NCBI RefSeq assembly: GCF_007745175.1
Contig: NZ_CP036271.1
Span: forward strand, 806,001 to 870,000
Origin: Caulifigura coniformis
Lineage (GTDB): Bacteria > Planctomycetota > Planctomycetia > Planctomycetales > Planctomycetaceae
Length of the DNA: 64,000 nt
Direction of reading: 5' to 3'
This document shows positions 52,129 to 57,609 of the stretch, one piece after another. A program made the translations under genes and the position numbers. The stretch's first letter is position 1, and every line of letters begins with the position of its first letter. The notes beneath the pieces were generated by a model that saw only the letters and a program-made list of their open reading frames with translations, searched no databases and was not told the origin of the DNA.

Positions 52129-53751
52129 ATGGCGACCCTCACTTCTGCAGTCCGCTCCATGAACGATACGTCGCAACCGTCTGCACCGCCTGCCAGTTCG
52201 GAGGTCCCGGTGGCGACCCCCCGAACCTCTGGCTTCGGCCTCTGGGAGCGGCTGGCCCGTCTGCCGGGGCAGCTCCTCGGGAGGAATCCATTCGGCGGCG
52301 AACTGCTTCCCGGGCGTGTTCCAATTCTGGCTCCCGGTTCTGGACGACCGGCGTTGCCATTCCCACACCCGTGGAACTACCGGGACCCGCTGTGCATTCT
52401 CGACTCCTACTTTCACGGCTCCGAATCGGCGGAAGGCGCCGCGCGGCACAACCGATATCTCGACTTTCCTGGCTTTCCGCCCGTCCTGGTGACGCGCGAT
52501 CCGGCCGTCATTCGCGCCATCTGCAGCGACACGGGCGACCAGCCGGGCCAGTTCGACCGCGATCCCCTCCCGTCGGCCGGCATCGCGCGGGCAACCGGCA
52601 AGGACACGCTCCTGTATTCGAACGGCTCGGTCTGGCGGCGGCAGCGGAAGATCGCGGCGCCGCCGTTCGGCAAGACGACCCTCTTCCAGCCAGAGCGATT
52701 CCACGAGTTCGAGGCGACCTTCCGGCAGACGATTCGCAAGCGTCTGGGAGTGCTCCGCGACCATCTCGCCTCCACCGGAAAGCCGACCGCAATCGTCTCG
52801 CTCGAGCCCGAGATCAAAGTGGTGATGCTGGAATTGCTCACCAACAACTTCTTCGGAACGGAAATCGGCTACGACGAACTGCGGTCAAATTACGTTCCGG
52901 CCATCGAACGGATGATCGACCACATCGTCCGCGACACGGTGACGAACACGCTTGGCCTGCCGCTGAAGAAGTTGCCCGCATTGACCCGATCAATTGCCCA
53001 GGCGAAACGCGACGACGCCACCTTCGAGGAACTGACCAACCTGGTTCTTGCCGGTCGAAAGTCGGGCAAAGGACTGTGGAAGCAGTTCAAGTCGGATGCG
53101 CCCGACTCGGCTCTCCGCAGCAACCTGCGCGTGTTCCTGGCCGGAGCGCTCGAGGCGACGACGTCCTACGCCACCTGGACGCTGGCACACCTGTCGCGCA
53201 ATCTCCCGGCGCAGGAGAAAGTGTTCACCGAGATCGAGCACATCGACGACTACACGCCAGACCGGCTCGATGAGGCCGGCTACTTCTGTCGTGTGCTCGA
53301 TGAAACCCTGCGCCTCACGCCGTCGCTCTATTTCCTGCCCCGGCAGGCGACGGTGGATACGACGGTGACGATCTCCGACGGCCGAACCATGCAGATCCCA
53401 GCGCGGACGCACGTCCTGCTTGGCGTGTGGCATGCGAACCGGCATGATGACCATTGGGGGCCAGCGATCACCGGGTACCCCGCGAACGAGTTTGCCCCCG
53501 AGCGCTGGGAGCACCTGGCCGCCAGTGGACGGGCGTCGAAGGAGATGCTGCACTTCGGATTCGGGCACGGGGCGCGCGTCTGCCCCGGGAAGCACCTCGG
53601 ACAGCTGGAAGTGGCGCTGGTTGTCGGAGCGATCGTGAAGATGTTCCGGTTCAAGGCCGTGAACGCAACGTGTGAAGCGCGGGCCGGAGTTTCGACGAAG
53701 CCGGCCGATGGAACGCTCGTCGAGCTCGAGCTGCGCGCCCCCGCGAACTAG
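52129..53751 (+). CDS. Cytochrome P450
   Basis: A P450 of about 540 residues. The haem-Cys motif is FGFGHGARVCPGKHLG, the ExxR motif lies in DETLRLTP, the WxxxR region in VWRRQRK, and the I-helix carries AGALEATT for oxygen activation. There is a polar/Pro-rich N-terminal extension (about residues 1-45) and no clear membrane helix. The redox partner is not adjacent. The ATG at 52129 was picked; the ATG at 52159 is also possible and neither has a good ribosome-binding site. It lies alone on the plus strand between copy B of the repeat and the RNA candidate. Confidence 0.93.
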   Translation: MATLTSAVRSMNDTSQPSAPPASSEVPVATPRTSGFGLWERLARLPGQLLGRNPFGGELLPGRVPILAPGSGRPALPFPHPWNYRDPLCILDSYFHGSESAEGAARHNRYLDFPGFPPVLVTRDPAVIRAICSDTGDQPGQFDRDPLPSAGIARATGKDTLLYSNGSVWRRQRKIAAPPFGKTTLFQPERFHEFEATFRQTIRKRLGVLRDHLASTGKPTAIVSLEPEIKVVMLELLTNNFFGTEIGYDELRSNYVPAIERMIDHIVRDTVTNTLGLPLKKLPALTRSIAQAKRDDATFEELTNLVLAGRKSGKGLWKQFKSDAPDSALRSNLRVFLAGALEATTSYATWTLAHLSRNLPAQEKVFTEIEHIDDYTPDRLDEAGYFCRVLDETLRLTPSLYFLPRQATVDTTVTISDGRTMQIPARTHVLLGVWHANRHDDHWGPAITGYPANEFAPERWEHLAASGRASKEMLHFGFGHGARVCPGKHLGQLEVALVVGAIVKMFRFKAVNATCEARAGVSTKPADGTLVELELRAPAN

Positions 53752-54071
53752 TGGCGACGATTGATCGCGACCTGCTTTCGACAACGGCCCGCGCGCCGTG
53801 GAAGGCCACTCGGGGCATCACGCGGAGAGTTCAACGTCCGCGGGAAACCGGGCGCCGTCGTGGCGTTCGGCGGCCGCGAAGTGAAGGATTGACGCTGCGA
53901 GGCGCGGTCACGACTGCGGAAGGAATTCGCGAAGATCGCAAAACTCCTCTTGCCACGCCGGCGGATTTCGCAAGAATCGCGTCGTGCCGTGCGGACGCTG
54001 CACGGCTGGTTTTCAGGCCCGCCCTTCCGGTTATTCTGGCAAGTCGCCGGAGGTGGGGTGTTCTGTCAGAA
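53752..54071. other. Intergenic stretch after the P450 gene
   Basis: About 320 bp between the P450 stop and the structured RNA candidate. A GTG-started frame overlaps the P450 stop but its product is Arg-rich and lacks a ribosome-binding site. Nothing else was seen; the promoter of the RNA should lie near its right end. Confidence 0.45.
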
Positions 54072-54232
54072 AGGAGGTGGTCGCGTGCAATATCACTGTA
54101 CTAGCCAACGAGGTGCGACTGTCTGAGCGGACGTCGGCGGATGATTCGCCGGCCCGGTTTGAAGTGGCGGCTGTGGGGTAACCAGCAGTCGTCAGCACCG
54201 TGGCGTCCTTCGGGACAAGACAGCCACCTCCT
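54072..54232 (+). ncRNA. Candidate structured non-coding RNA
   Basis: A roughly 161-nt element closed by a perfect 9-bp helix, AGGAGGTGG (54072-54080) with CCACCTCCT (54224-54232). Inside it, GGTGCGACTG (54112-54121) pairs with CAGTCG plus GCACC (54186-54191 and 54195-54199) around a 3-nt bulge, giving an 11-bp interrupted helix. That helix encloses a 5-bp hairpin (54135-54139 / 54147-54151) and a 4-bp GGTT/AACC pair (54156-54159 / 54180-54183). Next to it is a GTCC-TTCG-GGAC hairpin (54205-54216) with a stable UUCG loop. A strong intrinsic terminator follows at 54283. There is no downstream plus-strand gene for a riboswitch to control, so a stand-alone RNA is the best reading. It is not an obvious 6S, SRP, RNase P or tmRNA. 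Confidence 0.6.
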
Positions 54233-54282
54233 CATTGGACCCCACGGACGACTCGTCGTTCAGGGTTGATGAGTGATGAAAC

Positions 54283-54323
54283 ACGCCCGGCCCTCGACTC
54301 GTCGAGGGCCGGGCGTTCTTTTT
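54283..54323 (+). terminator. Strong intrinsic terminator of the RNA candidate
   Basis: The perfect 15-bp stem ACGCCCGGCCCTCGA (54283-54297) / TCGAGGGCCGGGCGT (54302-54316) has a 4-nt loop and is followed by TCTTTTTT. No protein gene on the plus strand lies within 500 bp upstream, so it fits the end of the RNA candidate. It also lies past the end of ispF on the other strand. Confidence 0.85.
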
Positions 54324-54352
54324 TGGGAAGGACGTTTCGAACCAGTCGTCCG

Positions 54353-54835
54353 TCAGGATCCCGCTCGCTCGATCAACACGACGGCGTCCGCGGAGAGAGC
54401 TTCCTCCCGGCCGACGGGACCGACCTTTTCGCCAGTTTTGGCTTTCACGTTGACCATCGCAGCGTCGAGGCCCAGCAGCGACGCGACTCGCTCCTTGATG
54501 GCGGTCTTGAAGGGCGAGAGTCTTGGCCGCTGGGCGTGAACGGTGCAGTCGAGATTCACGATCGACCACCCATCCCCCTTGAGTCGTGCGACAACGTTCT
54601 CGAGCAGCATGCCCGAATCGACTCCTGCGTACTGCGGATCGTTGTCGGGAAACCATTCACCGATGTCGCCCAGCCCGGCCGCGCCGAGCAGGGCGTCGGT
54701 GATGGCGTGCAGCAGGACGTCCCCATCGCTGTGCGCGACGGGGCCGGTTTCATGCGGAATGAGGACGCCGCCGATGATCAGCGGCTTTCCGGGGGCGAGG
54801 CGATGAGTGTCGTGTCCGAGACCGATGCGATGCAT
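54353..54835 (-). CDS. ispF: 2-C-methyl-D-erythritol 2,4-cyclodiphosphate synthase
   Basis: A 160-residue enzyme of the MEP isoprenoid pathway that cyclises CDP-methylerythritol phosphate to MEcPP with release of CMP. The metal site is the N-terminal GLGHDTHRL and a later conserved His in AHSDGDVLLHAI; further family blocks are DIGEWFPDNDPQYAG and the C-terminal VNVKAKTGEKVGPVGREEALSADAV. Start chosen at the ATG that begins MHRIGLGHD. Length is normal. ispD is not adjacent. Confidence 0.96.
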   Translation of the reverse strand: MHRIGLGHDTHRLAPGKPLIIGGVLIPHETGPVAHSDGDVLLHAITDALLGAAGLGDIGEWFPDNDPQYAGVDSGMLLENVVARLKGDGWSIVNLDCTVHAQRPRLSPFKTAIKERVASLLGLDAAMVNVKAKTGEKVGPVGREEALSADAVVLIERAGS

Positions 54836-54887: not shown

Positions 54888-56210
54888 TCATTTCGCGGAC
54901 AGATCGAGGGAGATGATCTCGTTATCGTTGCGGACGTACATGCAGCGATTCGCAAACGCAGGCGGGCTCCAGATCACGGCCCGCCCGAAGGCGTCCTGCG
55001 TCGGCGCGATCACATGCGCCCGGCTCACCTCTTCGTACTTCTCGGGGGTCAGCTTCGCGATGATGACGTCGCCCTTCTCGTTGAACAGGAAGAACCGGTC
55101 GCCGTTCCGTGTGAGAAACGCCGTCGCCGAGCCGGCCCTGCGGTCTCCCGTGGTGGCGGCATAGGTCTCCCACAGCTTTCCGCCGGTGGCTGAATCGAGG
55201 GCCGTCAGCTCGCCCTCGCGATCCACTCCGTACAACGTGTTGCCGACCACCAGGATCGGGCTATGCACCGGCCCCAGGCCGATCTTGGGCGACGTTTTCC
55301 AGAGCACCTCCGGCATGCCTGTTGCCGCCAGCTTCAGCATCACGCCGATCTTCACGATGCCGCCGGCGAACAGCGAGTCGCCTACCTGCACCGGCGGGAC
55401 GATCGACATTCCGAAGTTCGGTTCGAGTGGGACCGTCCAGTGAACGGAACCGGATGCAGGATCGACACCGTTGAGCGATTCCGGAGTCCACAGCACCAGC
55501 TCTTTCCGGCCGTGAAACTCGATCATGGTCGGCGGGCAGTAACCTGCGTCCTTCGAGTTGAGGGTGCGCCAGATTTCCCTGCCAGTCTTCTTGTCGAGGC
55601 AGACGGCAAAGGCGTTCGGGCCGCCGGGCGTCGCGAACAGGTGATCGCCGTCGACGAGCGGATGGGCGGCAAAGCCCCACATCGGCGTCGTCGCCTGGTA
55701 GTCGTTCTGGAAGTTCTTCGCCCAGATGACCGAGCCGTCTTTCACGGAGAGGCAGCGGAGGTCCCCTTCCGCGCCAAGAGAATAGACGCGATCACCATCG
55801 ACCGTCGGCGTGGCCCGCGGGCCGGCCGGATAGGAGATTTCATAGGTCCGCGGGTAAGAGTGGACCCACAACTCCTGCCCTGTTTTTTCGTCGAGGCAGA
55901 GGAGCCGCTCGTTCCCCTGCAGGATGTTCTTGACCCCCGGATCGGCCTTGGCGTCACCCGATTTCCGGACGTAGTCGGAGACGAATACCCGTCCGTCCGC
56001 CACCGCCGGCCCGCTGTAGCCTCCCGCGATCCTCGCCCGCCACTTCACCGGAGGGCCTTCCGCTGGAAACGTCTCGACAATTCCGGTTTCGCTCCAGACG
56101 CCGTTCCGTTGCGGCCCAAGCCATTGGGGCCAGTCGTCGGCAAAAGCGCTGGTCGAAACCGAAACGAGGGCGGAGAAGAAAATTGCGGAGAAGGATCGTT
56201 GCGATCGCAT
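54888..56210 (-). CDS. Secreted PQQ-type beta-propeller protein
   Basis: A 440-residue protein with a signal peptide (about residues 1-24, ending SAFADDWPQW). The W-P-Q-W-L-G-P-Q-R-N-G block and the repeated (A/G)(D/T)G-(K/R)-(V/L)-(F/Y) blades (GYSGPAVADGRVFVSDY, TPTVDGDRVYSLGAEGDL, HPLVDGDHLFATPGG, DSLFAGGIVKI and others) match PQQ-like propellers common in planctomycetes. These may be BamB-like scaffolds or dehydrogenases without a bound cofactor; no catalytic residues are evident. It shares the minus-strand run with the next propeller gene, 75 nt away. Confidence 0.87.
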   Translation of the reverse strand: MRSQRSFSAIFFSALVSVSTSAFADDWPQWLGPQRNGVWSETGIVETFPAEGPPVKWRARIAGGYSGPAVADGRVFVSDYVRKSGDAKADPGVKNILQGNERLLCLDEKTGQELWVHSYPRTYEISYPAGPRATPTVDGDRVYSLGAEGDLRCLSVKDGSVIWAKNFQNDYQATTPMWGFAAHPLVDGDHLFATPGGPNAFAVCLDKKTGREIWRTLNSKDAGYCPPTMIEFHGRKELVLWTPESLNGVDPASGSVHWTVPLEPNFGMSIVPPVQVGDSLFAGGIVKIGVMLKLAATGMPEVLWKTSPKIGLGPVHSPILVVGNTLYGVDREGELTALDSATGGKLWETYAATTGDRRAGSATAFLTRNGDRFFLFNEKGDVIIAKLTPEKYEEVSRAHVIAPTQDAFGRAVIWSPPAFANRCMYVRNDNEIISLDLSAK

Positions 56211-56285
56211 GGAAAGAGTCCGGAGGCAGAGGCAGGGGAACGACGCGATTCTAGACGCATTCTTCCCGCCGGCTTCCCGGACCGC

Positions 56286-57542
56286 TTACTTCGCGGCCAC
56301 GTTCTCTTTTTCGCCGACACGGTAAAGGTGCGATTCACTGCGCAGGAACAGCGCCCCGTCAATCGGAGTGTAGGACGCGTAGGTCCTGAGCCCATTGGCA
56401 AATTCGTTCTCGGCAATCTTCTCGAACGTGTGTCCCGGCTTGAACACGATCGAACGCCCTTCTTCGTTCTGGGCGTAGATCTTGCCGTCGGCATACAGCA
56501 GGGAGGCCGAGTACTTGCCGCCGACCCGCTCCGTCCAGTGGACTTTTCCGGAGGAAACGTCGACGCAGCTGATGATCCCCGCGTCCGACACGAAGTAAAC
56601 GTCGTCCCCCACGACGACCGGCGATGGGTTGTAGGGGACTCCGCGTTCCAGCGACCACTTCACATGACTGTCGGTGATGTCGCCGCTCCCTGTGGGATCG
56701 ATGGCCAGGATCTTCCCCTTCTCATAGCCGGTGCAGGCGATGACCAGGCCGTTGGCGTAGACCGGGCGGGGGACGACCGACCAGTTGCCGTGACGCACAC
56801 GCCACAGCTCTTTGCCGTTGGCCGGATCGTAGGACATGATCGCGCCGCTGCCGGGGCAGATCGCCTGCGTTTGGCCGTTGATGTCAACGACGAGCGGCGT
56901 GCCGAACGAGAATCCTTTCGAGAAGCCAACATCGCGAGGAGTCTTCCAGGCGACGTGGCCGGTGGTCTTGTCGAGAGCCGCGACGTACTGCGAGTCGTGG
57001 CCGTCGCAGCAGATCACCAGATGATTGCCGGCCAGGGCCGGAGACCCGCCGACGCCGTGCTGCGGAAGGTACTTCAGCTCATTGGTCTTCCAGAGAACCT
57101 TGCCGTCGAAGTCGACGGCGGCCGTTCCGTGGGGACCGAAGTGGAGGAACACCCGGTCGCCGTCGATCAGCGGCGAGGCGCTGGCGTGACTGTTCTTCTT
57201 GTGGATCTCGACCTTGCTTTCGGTGCGGAAGAGTTCGTTGTTCCAGAGGATCTCACCGCTGCGGGGATCGATGCAGAGGGCGCGCAGCGACTGGGCGTCG
57301 TCGCCTTCCTGAACGGCGGTCGTGATAAAGAGTCGATTGCCGACAATGACGGGGGTCGACCAGCCGAGGCCGGGAATCTCCGTCTTCCAGACGACGTTCT
57401 CGGTCTCACTCCAGGTCGTGGGGAGCCGCGTGGCGTCGGAAAGGCCCTGGGCCGTCGGCCCGCGGAAATCGAGCCAGTCCTTCGCAGCGGCTTGAGATGT
57501 CAGGCCCAGAACAACAACGACCGCGCCAAACCAACGGTGCAT
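56286..57542 (-). CDS. Secreted PQQ-type beta-propeller protein (second copy)
   Basis: A 418-residue protein with a signal peptide (about residues 1-21, ending AAAKDWLDF). It starts with DWLDFRGPTAQGLSD and carries blades such as STPVIVGNRLFITT, ASPLIDGDRVFLHFG, GSPALAGNHLVICC, PRPVYANGLVIACTG and PSPVVVGDDVYFVSD. GGAG lies about 6 nt before the ATG. It is a paralogue of the neighbouring propeller, not close enough to be a recent copy. Function is not known; both may serve one envelope process. Confidence 0.87.
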   Translation of the reverse strand: MHRWFGAVVVVLGLTSQAAAKDWLDFRGPTAQGLSDATRLPTTWSETENVVWKTEIPGLGWSTPVIVGNRLFITTAVQEGDDAQSLRALCIDPRSGEILWNNELFRTESKVEIHKKNSHASASPLIDGDRVFLHFGPHGTAAVDFDGKVLWKTNELKYLPQHGVGGSPALAGNHLVICCDGHDSQYVAALDKTTGHVAWKTPRDVGFSKGFSFGTPLVVDINGQTQAICPGSGAIMSYDPANGKELWRVRHGNWSVVPRPVYANGLVIACTGYEKGKILAIDPTGSGDITDSHVKWSLERGVPYNPSPVVVGDDVYFVSDAGIISCVDVSSGKVHWTERVGGKYSASLLYADGKIYAQNEEGRSIVFKPGHTFEKIAENEFANGLRTYASYTPIDGALFLRSESHLYRVGEKENVAAK

Positions 57543-57609
57543 AACCACTCCGGATACGTCGAATGAGCAGAGCGATCTTAGCGGATGACCGGTTCGGAGG
57601 CAGGTGATC

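Follow-up and report, generated by a model that had tools for sequence, protein, structure and literature searches.

A stand-alone, probably translated RNA of Planctomycetota whose fold may be set by the ribosome that reads it

The element described here lies in a 64,000-nucleotide stretch of the Caulifigura coniformis genome (contig NZ_CP036271.1, positions 806,001 to 870,000; hereafter the window) and, judged by sequence comparison, is at once a structured stand-alone RNA and a ribosome-binding site with a short ORF. Comparison of relatives revealed a conserved structure, a kept reading frame, a first SD sequence (SD1) that is a near-complete complement of the 16S tail, and a CCACC strand that fits either SD1 or a second SD word (SD2). 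Because the position of the stop codon would allow a terminating ribosome to engage SD2 through its anti-SD, we propose that this is a translated RNA whose fold is set by the ribosome itself and which acts as a one-ribosome latch, a tentative reading to which we give a probability of roughly 0.36.

The conserved unit begins at about position 53984 of the window, some 90 nt 5' of the start proposed in an earlier note on this DNA, which had placed a stand-alone structured RNA at 54072-54323. The structure within that extent was recovered; the start was not, the 5' domain and a promoter-like site having been cut off. The unit runs in the order promoter-like site, 5' domain, SD1, 13-codon ORF, helix A, hairpin B and terminator (Table 1), and the RNA is estimated to be about 340 nt in length. 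Long inserts like that of the window copy were also found in the copy of the same genus (L007) and in L011.

Table 1. Features of the element in the window (coordinates are window positions).
Feature	Position	Strand	Basis or remark
Promoter-like site TTGCCA-16-AAGAAT	53950-53977 (-35, 53950-53955; -10, 53972-53977)	+	Hexamer-pair scan
Hairpin E (GCCGTGC/GCACGGC, ACGC in loop)	53986-54006	+	Arm-pairing test; just 3' of the inferred transcription start (~53984)
5' domain	54016-54058	+	Helix F around hairpin D; ends-pairing test
Helix F	CCCGCC 54018-54023 / GGTGGG 54052-54057	+	Window pairs read from sequence
Hairpin D	CCGG 54027-54030 / CCGG 54047-54050	+	Inside helix F; window pairs read from sequence
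SD1 GAAAGGAGGTGGTC	54069-54082	+	Complement of relatives' 16S 3' tail, one G-U
Short ORF, GTG start, 13 codons MQYHCTSQRGATV	54085-54126 (stop TGA 54124-54126)	+	Frame kept in relatives
SD2 and helix A 5' arm	54110-54123 (SD2 GAGGTG 54110-54115; arm 54110-54115 and CTGTC 54119-54123)	+	Covariation, frame test, folding
Hairpin B, GGCG tetraloop	54132-54143	+	4 bp in window; at least 7 bp in many relatives
Long insert with UUCG hairpin	54144-54216 (hairpin 54205-54216)	+	Outside conserved core
Helix A 3' arm	54219-54232 (GACAG 54219-54223; CACCTC 54225-54230)	+	Folding
Hairpin C (CTCAT/ATGAG ends)	54231-54273	+	Analogy with relatives; sequence inspection alone
Intrinsic terminator, 15 bp, T-run	54284-54324 (arms 54284-54298 / 54301-54315, then TTCTTTTTT)	+	Folding

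The helices that the earlier note had named, matched to its list by length, were found where it had put them. The 9-bp helix joins AGGAGGTGG (54072-54080) to CCACCTCCT (54224-54232), the latter being able to pair with SD1 as an alternative partner, and the 11-bp helix with a 3-nt bulge (GAGGTG-CGA-CTGTC/GACAG-C-CACCTC) pairs GAGGTG with CACCTC and CTGTC with GACAG. Because one 3' strand serves both, the two helices are alternatives. Forced folds of 54060-54260 gave -83.9 kcal/mol with the 9-bp helix (SD1 masked) and -77.7 kcal/mol with the 11-bp helix, and the minimum fold of 54060-54335 holds the 11-bp helix. The 5-bp hairpin (54085-54089/54097-54101) and the 4-bp pair (54078-54081/54104-54107) are likewise contained in the minimum-energy fold, and folding was better than chance (z -5.4; 0 of 200 shuffles as good). 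The counterpart of hairpin C in relatives reads CTCGTA..GGATCACC..GATCC..TACGAG. As a separate observation, GGGTTGATGAGTGATGAAACACG at 54261-54282 bears a faint likeness, probably by chance, to a hammerhead core.

A DNA search of 59 genomes matched 24, own included, some of them through the terminator or other short stretches alone, and the full core was present at 21 loci, again own included. Eighteen of the 21 were aligned (alignment A1) for a covariance model (R1), the window copy (L001), L007 and L011 being left out for their long inserts. Within the family, R1 found the element in 119 of 150 genomes (own included; a single match in 118 and two in the other) and gave none in 31; it also matched 45 of 294 genomes drawn from the phylum. 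A wider covariance model (R2), built from 90 elements, matched 113 of the 294 before individual elements were read. The elements of 45 of these genomes had been read earlier; those of the other 68 (70 places) were fetched and read, and an ORF of 8-22 codons was found in 60 places and none in 10, all 10 with E >2e-4. Each of the 39 fetched places with E <2e-4 had a short ORF, and four of the 39 had no SD2-like word by script. One of the 60 (L264) looks false, and L254, among the 10, resembles a copy that has lost its stop. With the 10 places and the false-looking one taken into account, the count therefore drops from 113 to about 104 of the 294, and about 190 show no element by R2 and reading. 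Among the carriers are Thalassoglobus neptunius KOR42 (L160) and Planctomycetales bacterium 10988 (L176). A paralogue in the window's own genome was considered and rejected, the sole other match below E 0.4 being the palindrome of the terminator, and the element pattern gave 0 matches in viral_contigs. For the comparisons below, the 90 elements were divided by order of R1 score, not by taxonomy, into a class set of 61 and 29 others.

Among planctomycete genomes the helices are kept with compensatory changes, and the covariation covers helix A and hairpin B. In the 90-element alignment, which was fitted to the model and so leans towards it, 87.7% of pair cells were standard pairs (70.0% in shuffles) and 227 cells were double changes (64 in shuffles), and pairing fell to 21-51% when the partner was slid by 1-3 columns. 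A MAFFT alignment of the 18 elements of A1 gave 85.9% standard pairs versus 80.6% and 22 double changes versus 10.1 in shuffles; for two of the five covariation measures, 67 and 93 of 500 shuffles did as well. A script called a GGCG or GACG (GRCG) tetraloop, closed by a perfect stem of 4 bp or more, in 66 of the 90 elements, one of these hairpin B calls (L082) being probably spurious. Towards the 5' end, permuted partners paired as well as the true ones in 0 of 500 trials for the arms of hairpin E and in 0 of 500 for the ends of the helix F/hairpin D domain (57 of the 61 class sequences in both tests, 4 dropped).

Upstream of the window copy, one promoter-like hexamer pair was found where 0.1 was expected from shuffles. 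At the corresponding place in the class sequences (offset 42-54 of 75), the second hexamer of the best pair was found in 41 of 57, with a mean best score of 8.0 against 6.8 for one shuffle each. A terminator-like hairpin followed the element in 51 of 61 class and 24 of 29 other elements (controls: other strand, 22/61 and 7/29; upstream, 10/60 and 8/28). With a promoter-like site, a terminator and a covarying fold all found, the element is, on comparative evidence, a stand-alone structured RNA.

SD1 was predicted to pair with the 16S tail at -26.9 kcal/mol, which is rank 1 of the 4473 start-like codons in the window (next -19.7, median -6.5). The tail was read in 13 genomes that carry the element, and relatives' tail was used for the window because its own genome gave no 16S match; searches gave none in 13/20, 9/9 and 21/27 genomes, the window's own included, and masking is possibly the reason for such missing matches in genome copies, complete ones included. 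A compensatory change between 16S and SD1 (GGTC versus GGAC) was considered and rejected: the tail was GGATCACCTCCTTTCT in 13 of 13 readable genomes and, being identical in all of them, leaves the mismatch of SD1 as a G-U pair.

An ORF was found in 90 of 90 elements, partly by construction, the parsers having preferred starts that give short ORFs. The distance from start to SD2 is 22, 25, 28, 31, 34 or 40 nt, all one phase, in 57 of 59 class elements (the two exceptions, 23 and 36 nt), and the control interval from SD2 to the loop of hairpin B showed no preferred phase (24/14/20); elements with no SD2-like word (2 of 61 class and 10 of 29 other) were dropped from this test. In 52 of these 59 class copies the stop comes 8 nt after SD2. 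An SD2-like word is present in 19 of the other 29 elements, and 13 of the 19 share a different phase; the frame of SD2 therefore appears to have changed between lineages, with an ORF ending near SD2 kept. As expected of a translated sRNA, the reading frame was thus found conserved in the comparison, and translation looks built in, because the frame is conserved and SD1 tops the ranking of 16S complementarity. The earlier note had offered a ribosome-binding site for a GTG-started peptide as an alternative, with the pairing then coincidental or regulatory; that opposition falls away, as both of its readings appear to hold together. A non-coding RNA that has its SD and ORF by coincidence would account for a structure conserved regardless of coding status, and can be given very little credence when 57 of 59 starts keep one phase at six different lengths.

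A different possibility is that the peptide is the product, i.e. a bioactive peptide of 9-18 residues made from a small structured mRNA whose helices only tune translation or stability. The kept frame would fit this, as would the clustering of class peptides around M-E-Y-D-C-S-S-Q-R-G-G and the recurrence of a CEVV(T/A)S-type ending in three Planctomycetota copies and in copies from other phyla. The peptide itself, however, varies in length from 9 to 18 residues, its RGG, RRW and EV(V/A) endings are encoded by the paired GAGGTGG, whose reading frame differs by lineage, and pN/pS was 0.72 in 26 non-redundant ORFs, taken from 32 of equal length. At this weak constraint being read seems more important than the product, the frame appears to be held more tightly than the peptide, and we regard a peptide product as unlikely.

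In every one of the 61 class elements, the 3' arm of helix A is able to pair with SD1 at or below -6 kcal/mol (median -11.1), a level that a control stretch of the ORF reached in 20 of 61 (median -4.8); outside the class, SD1 pairing is weaker (23/29, control 13/29). This ability is partly due to the likeness of SD1 and SD2. In addition, GGATCACC, a copy of the 16S tail, lies 3' of the ORF in 17 of 61 class elements (upstream control, 0/61), where it was seen after helix A (e.g. L010, L016, L008 and L022), and is absent from the window copy. As a mimic of the 16S tail, it could bind SD1 or a protein that binds the 16S tail, of which Era is an example.

A further idea is that the element is a trans-acting base-pairing sRNA, in which the 5' hairpins, the GRCG loop or the CCACC strand would be the seed and translation a side regulator. 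Conserved loops, a promoter-like site with a terminator and the resemblance of CCACC to an anti-SD speak for such a role, which leaves the tight conservation of the frame unexplained and seems to us distinctly improbable. A ribosome sponge or hibernation aid, in which the maximal SD would simply hold 30S subunits and the ORF and SD2 would keep them on, would make sense of the top rank of SD1, of the spacing from SD2 to the stop, and of one match per genome with its own promoter-like site and terminator. A sponge would have no need of a kept frame, a GRCG hairpin or a 5' domain, and we regard this reading as unlikely.

Gene context was compared at 62 loci, with downstream ORFs called mechanically and those overlapping the element set aside. 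At 33 of these loci the nearest downstream ORF ran on the opposite strand and at 22 on the same one; 7 had none. Neighbours were shared by groups of at most 7 loci and none was widely common; a larger cluster (10 loci) was rejected as a neighbour, as it consisted of antisense ORFs over the element itself. In the window, a cytochrome P450 gene lies upstream and a convergent YgbB/ispF gene downstream; beyond ispF, on the minus strand (54888-57548), are two adjacent PQQ-type beta-propeller genes (PF13360). With context unshared, the neighbour convergent and viral copies absent, the element looks like a stand-alone gene. An SD, a short ORF, alternative helices and a terminator do resemble a leader-peptide attenuator or riboswitch of a downstream gene, an explanation that these strand counts, the small groups sharing neighbours and the convergent YgbB/ispF make highly improbable. 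Two statements of the earlier note were thus borne out: that there is no target gene and a riboswitch is unlikely, in that no co-directional downstream gene is conserved, and that the RNA stands alone with its terminator, on the terminator counts, the covariation and the unshared neighbours. The occurrence of mostly one match per genome over much of the family and about a third of the phylum genomes, with unshared neighbours, points to a general function more than to a local one.

For the one-ribosome latch, the following cycle is envisaged. A 30S subunit would dock on SD1, and the ribosome would read the 9-18 codons and open helix A; docking and reading are supported by the comparison. At the stop, the anti-SD of the ribosome would face SD2 at a spacing like that of initiation, so that the ribosome may linger; the CCACC strand, left free meanwhile, would close SD1 and block the next ribosome. 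Once the ribosome leaves, helix A would re-form and SD1 open. About one ribosome would thus pass at a time, and we infer that the fold may report the supply of free subunits and their recycling. Any output is more speculative still: it might be exerted on other RNAs or a protein, through either the anti-SD-like strand once freed or the GRCG loop, or might amount to a simple holding of 30S subunits. With translation wired into the fold, sensing of ribosome supply or recycling by an RNA becomes a testable question.

In agreement with the earlier note, which recognised no RNA class, no Rfam family matched the window or 10 relatives at its gathering threshold; at a relaxed threshold, 53750-54400 gave six families, every one far under its cut-off. 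tmRNA (RF00023) was rejected as an identity, with no match at the locus and the tmRNA of the genome elsewhere (G000:C1:6238443-6238817, 158.3 bits). Among the full-text literature, searched by titles and abstract openings and thus outside most subscription papers, no account of this RNA in Planctomycetes was found.

A scan of the genome collection with a pattern containing SD1, GTG, GAGGTGG and GRCGG gave 54 loci, 45 titled planctomycetes by name or taxon (two Kuenenia) and 9 with other titles. Eight of the 9 are MAGs with SD1, an ORF of 13-19 codons containing EV(V/A) and a stop (phyla as labelled); the other (L152) reads on without a stop and was taken as an ordinary gene. Inspection of the folds by eye showed terminator-like hairpins in L154, L163, L171, L177, L179 and L187. 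Whole-genome R2 searches of 8 other-phylum genomes placed the pattern locus at the top with E between 1.1e-5 and 0.08 (the highest value, that of L187, not being significant), scores that are not independent, the loci having been chosen by a pattern with the same words. Outside the phylum R2 performs poorly: a search of 118 genomes belonging to the same phylum as L163, its own included, gave 9 matches, of which 3 were read as real (L204, which is L163 itself, L206 and L209) and 6 were not. An alignment of 8 other-phylum elements (A4; L184 and L187 left out for poor fit), from which model R3 was built, had helix A paired at 93.1% versus 80.1% in shuffles, with 10 double-change cells versus 3.6, two of the five covariation measures being reached by 78 and 89 of 500 shuffles. 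Of six ordinary-SD controls, the best reached 22.8 bits with R3; 28 of 92 Planctomycetota-side loci scored higher, among them the Planctomycetota copies L276-L278 (45.7-48.6 bits), which carry CEVVAS/SEVVTS peptides of the type found in other phyla, and the family member L034 (32.2); the window copy, at 22.4, was under the control maximum. A bridge to other phyla would therefore run via other copies and not directly from the window.

Two Rfam families touch these elements. Ms_IGR-5 (RF02471), an orphan sRNA of Actinobacteria, matched the MAG loci L154 (49.1 bits) and L163 (47.5 bits) on the element, above its cut-off of 45, and L177 under it (34.2 bits). It gave no match in the window, none at E 1 in the own genome and none reaching the cut-off in 30 Planctomycetota genomes, own included; a match in G041 (L199, 26.5 bits), with no SD1-like word there, was treated as chance. 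Across 14 control genomes it matched once (Caulobacter, below the cut-off), Corynebacterium glutamicum giving none. CC2171 (RF01867), an sRNA of Caulobacter, has matches overlapping the L187 and L163 elements (39.2 and 30.3 bits, respectively), both under its cut-off of 75, and had no gathering-threshold match in the window or 10 Planctomycetota loci. IGR-5 overlaps ncMSMEG15794c (PMC10454040), RNA-seq validation of Ms_IGR-5 is indicated for Streptomyces lividans (SLIV_16488; PMC8079986), so that laboratory strains exist, an MS_IGR-5-type transcript is listed for S. avermitilis (PMC8780764), and the family is named once in PMC4974804; the portions of this literature that were covered give no function for it. 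For CC2171, one covarying pair has been added (PMC11701678) and a match noted in Mesorhizobium (PMC5596092). The literature covered also included PMC7717549 and PMC5521070.

The consensus of Ms_IGR-5 has AAGGAGGUGGUCC, then GUGAGGUGGCUG, an in-frame stop, a CAGUCACC that could form helix A, and finally a terminator, its frame, read by hand from UUG, being MIDLWTCEVAAR; it thus shares with the window the order SD1, short ORF, GAGGUGG, stop, CACC strand and terminator. It differs in hairpin B and the 5' domain, and in that the Rfam structure pairs SD1 with the ORF instead of forming helix A. In that consensus GGUGGCUG/CAGUCACC (helix A) is available and may be a better helix than the one drawn. 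CC2171 holds AAAGGAGGUGAUCCAGUG in its consensus, of which the two ends were compared. A common reading can accordingly be offered for two orphan Rfam sRNAs: a possible ancient superfamily covering Planctomycetota, Actinobacteria (Ms_IGR-5), Alphaproteobacteria (CC2171) and MAGs labelled Nitrospirota, Deltaproteobacteria, Myxococcales, Thermoanaerobaculia and Anaerolineae, each with an anti-SD strand toggle that would act as a one-ribosome latch and gauge free 30S subunits and recycling. We put this forward as a speculative grouping, more doubtful than the latch itself.

Among systems of known function, tmRNA also engages the ribosome through a short internal ORF, and differs in that the ORF of the window has its own SD and start. 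SgrS/SgrT and RNAIII are peptide-encoding sRNAs, i.e. stand-alone sRNAs with a translated short ORF; in the present element, by contrast, the conserved fold itself takes in SD, ORF and stop, and constraint is tighter on the frame than on the peptide. In leader-peptide attenuators the position of the ribosome selects between exclusive helices, as is proposed here, whereas in this element there is no downstream gene and the terminator is the end of the RNA itself.
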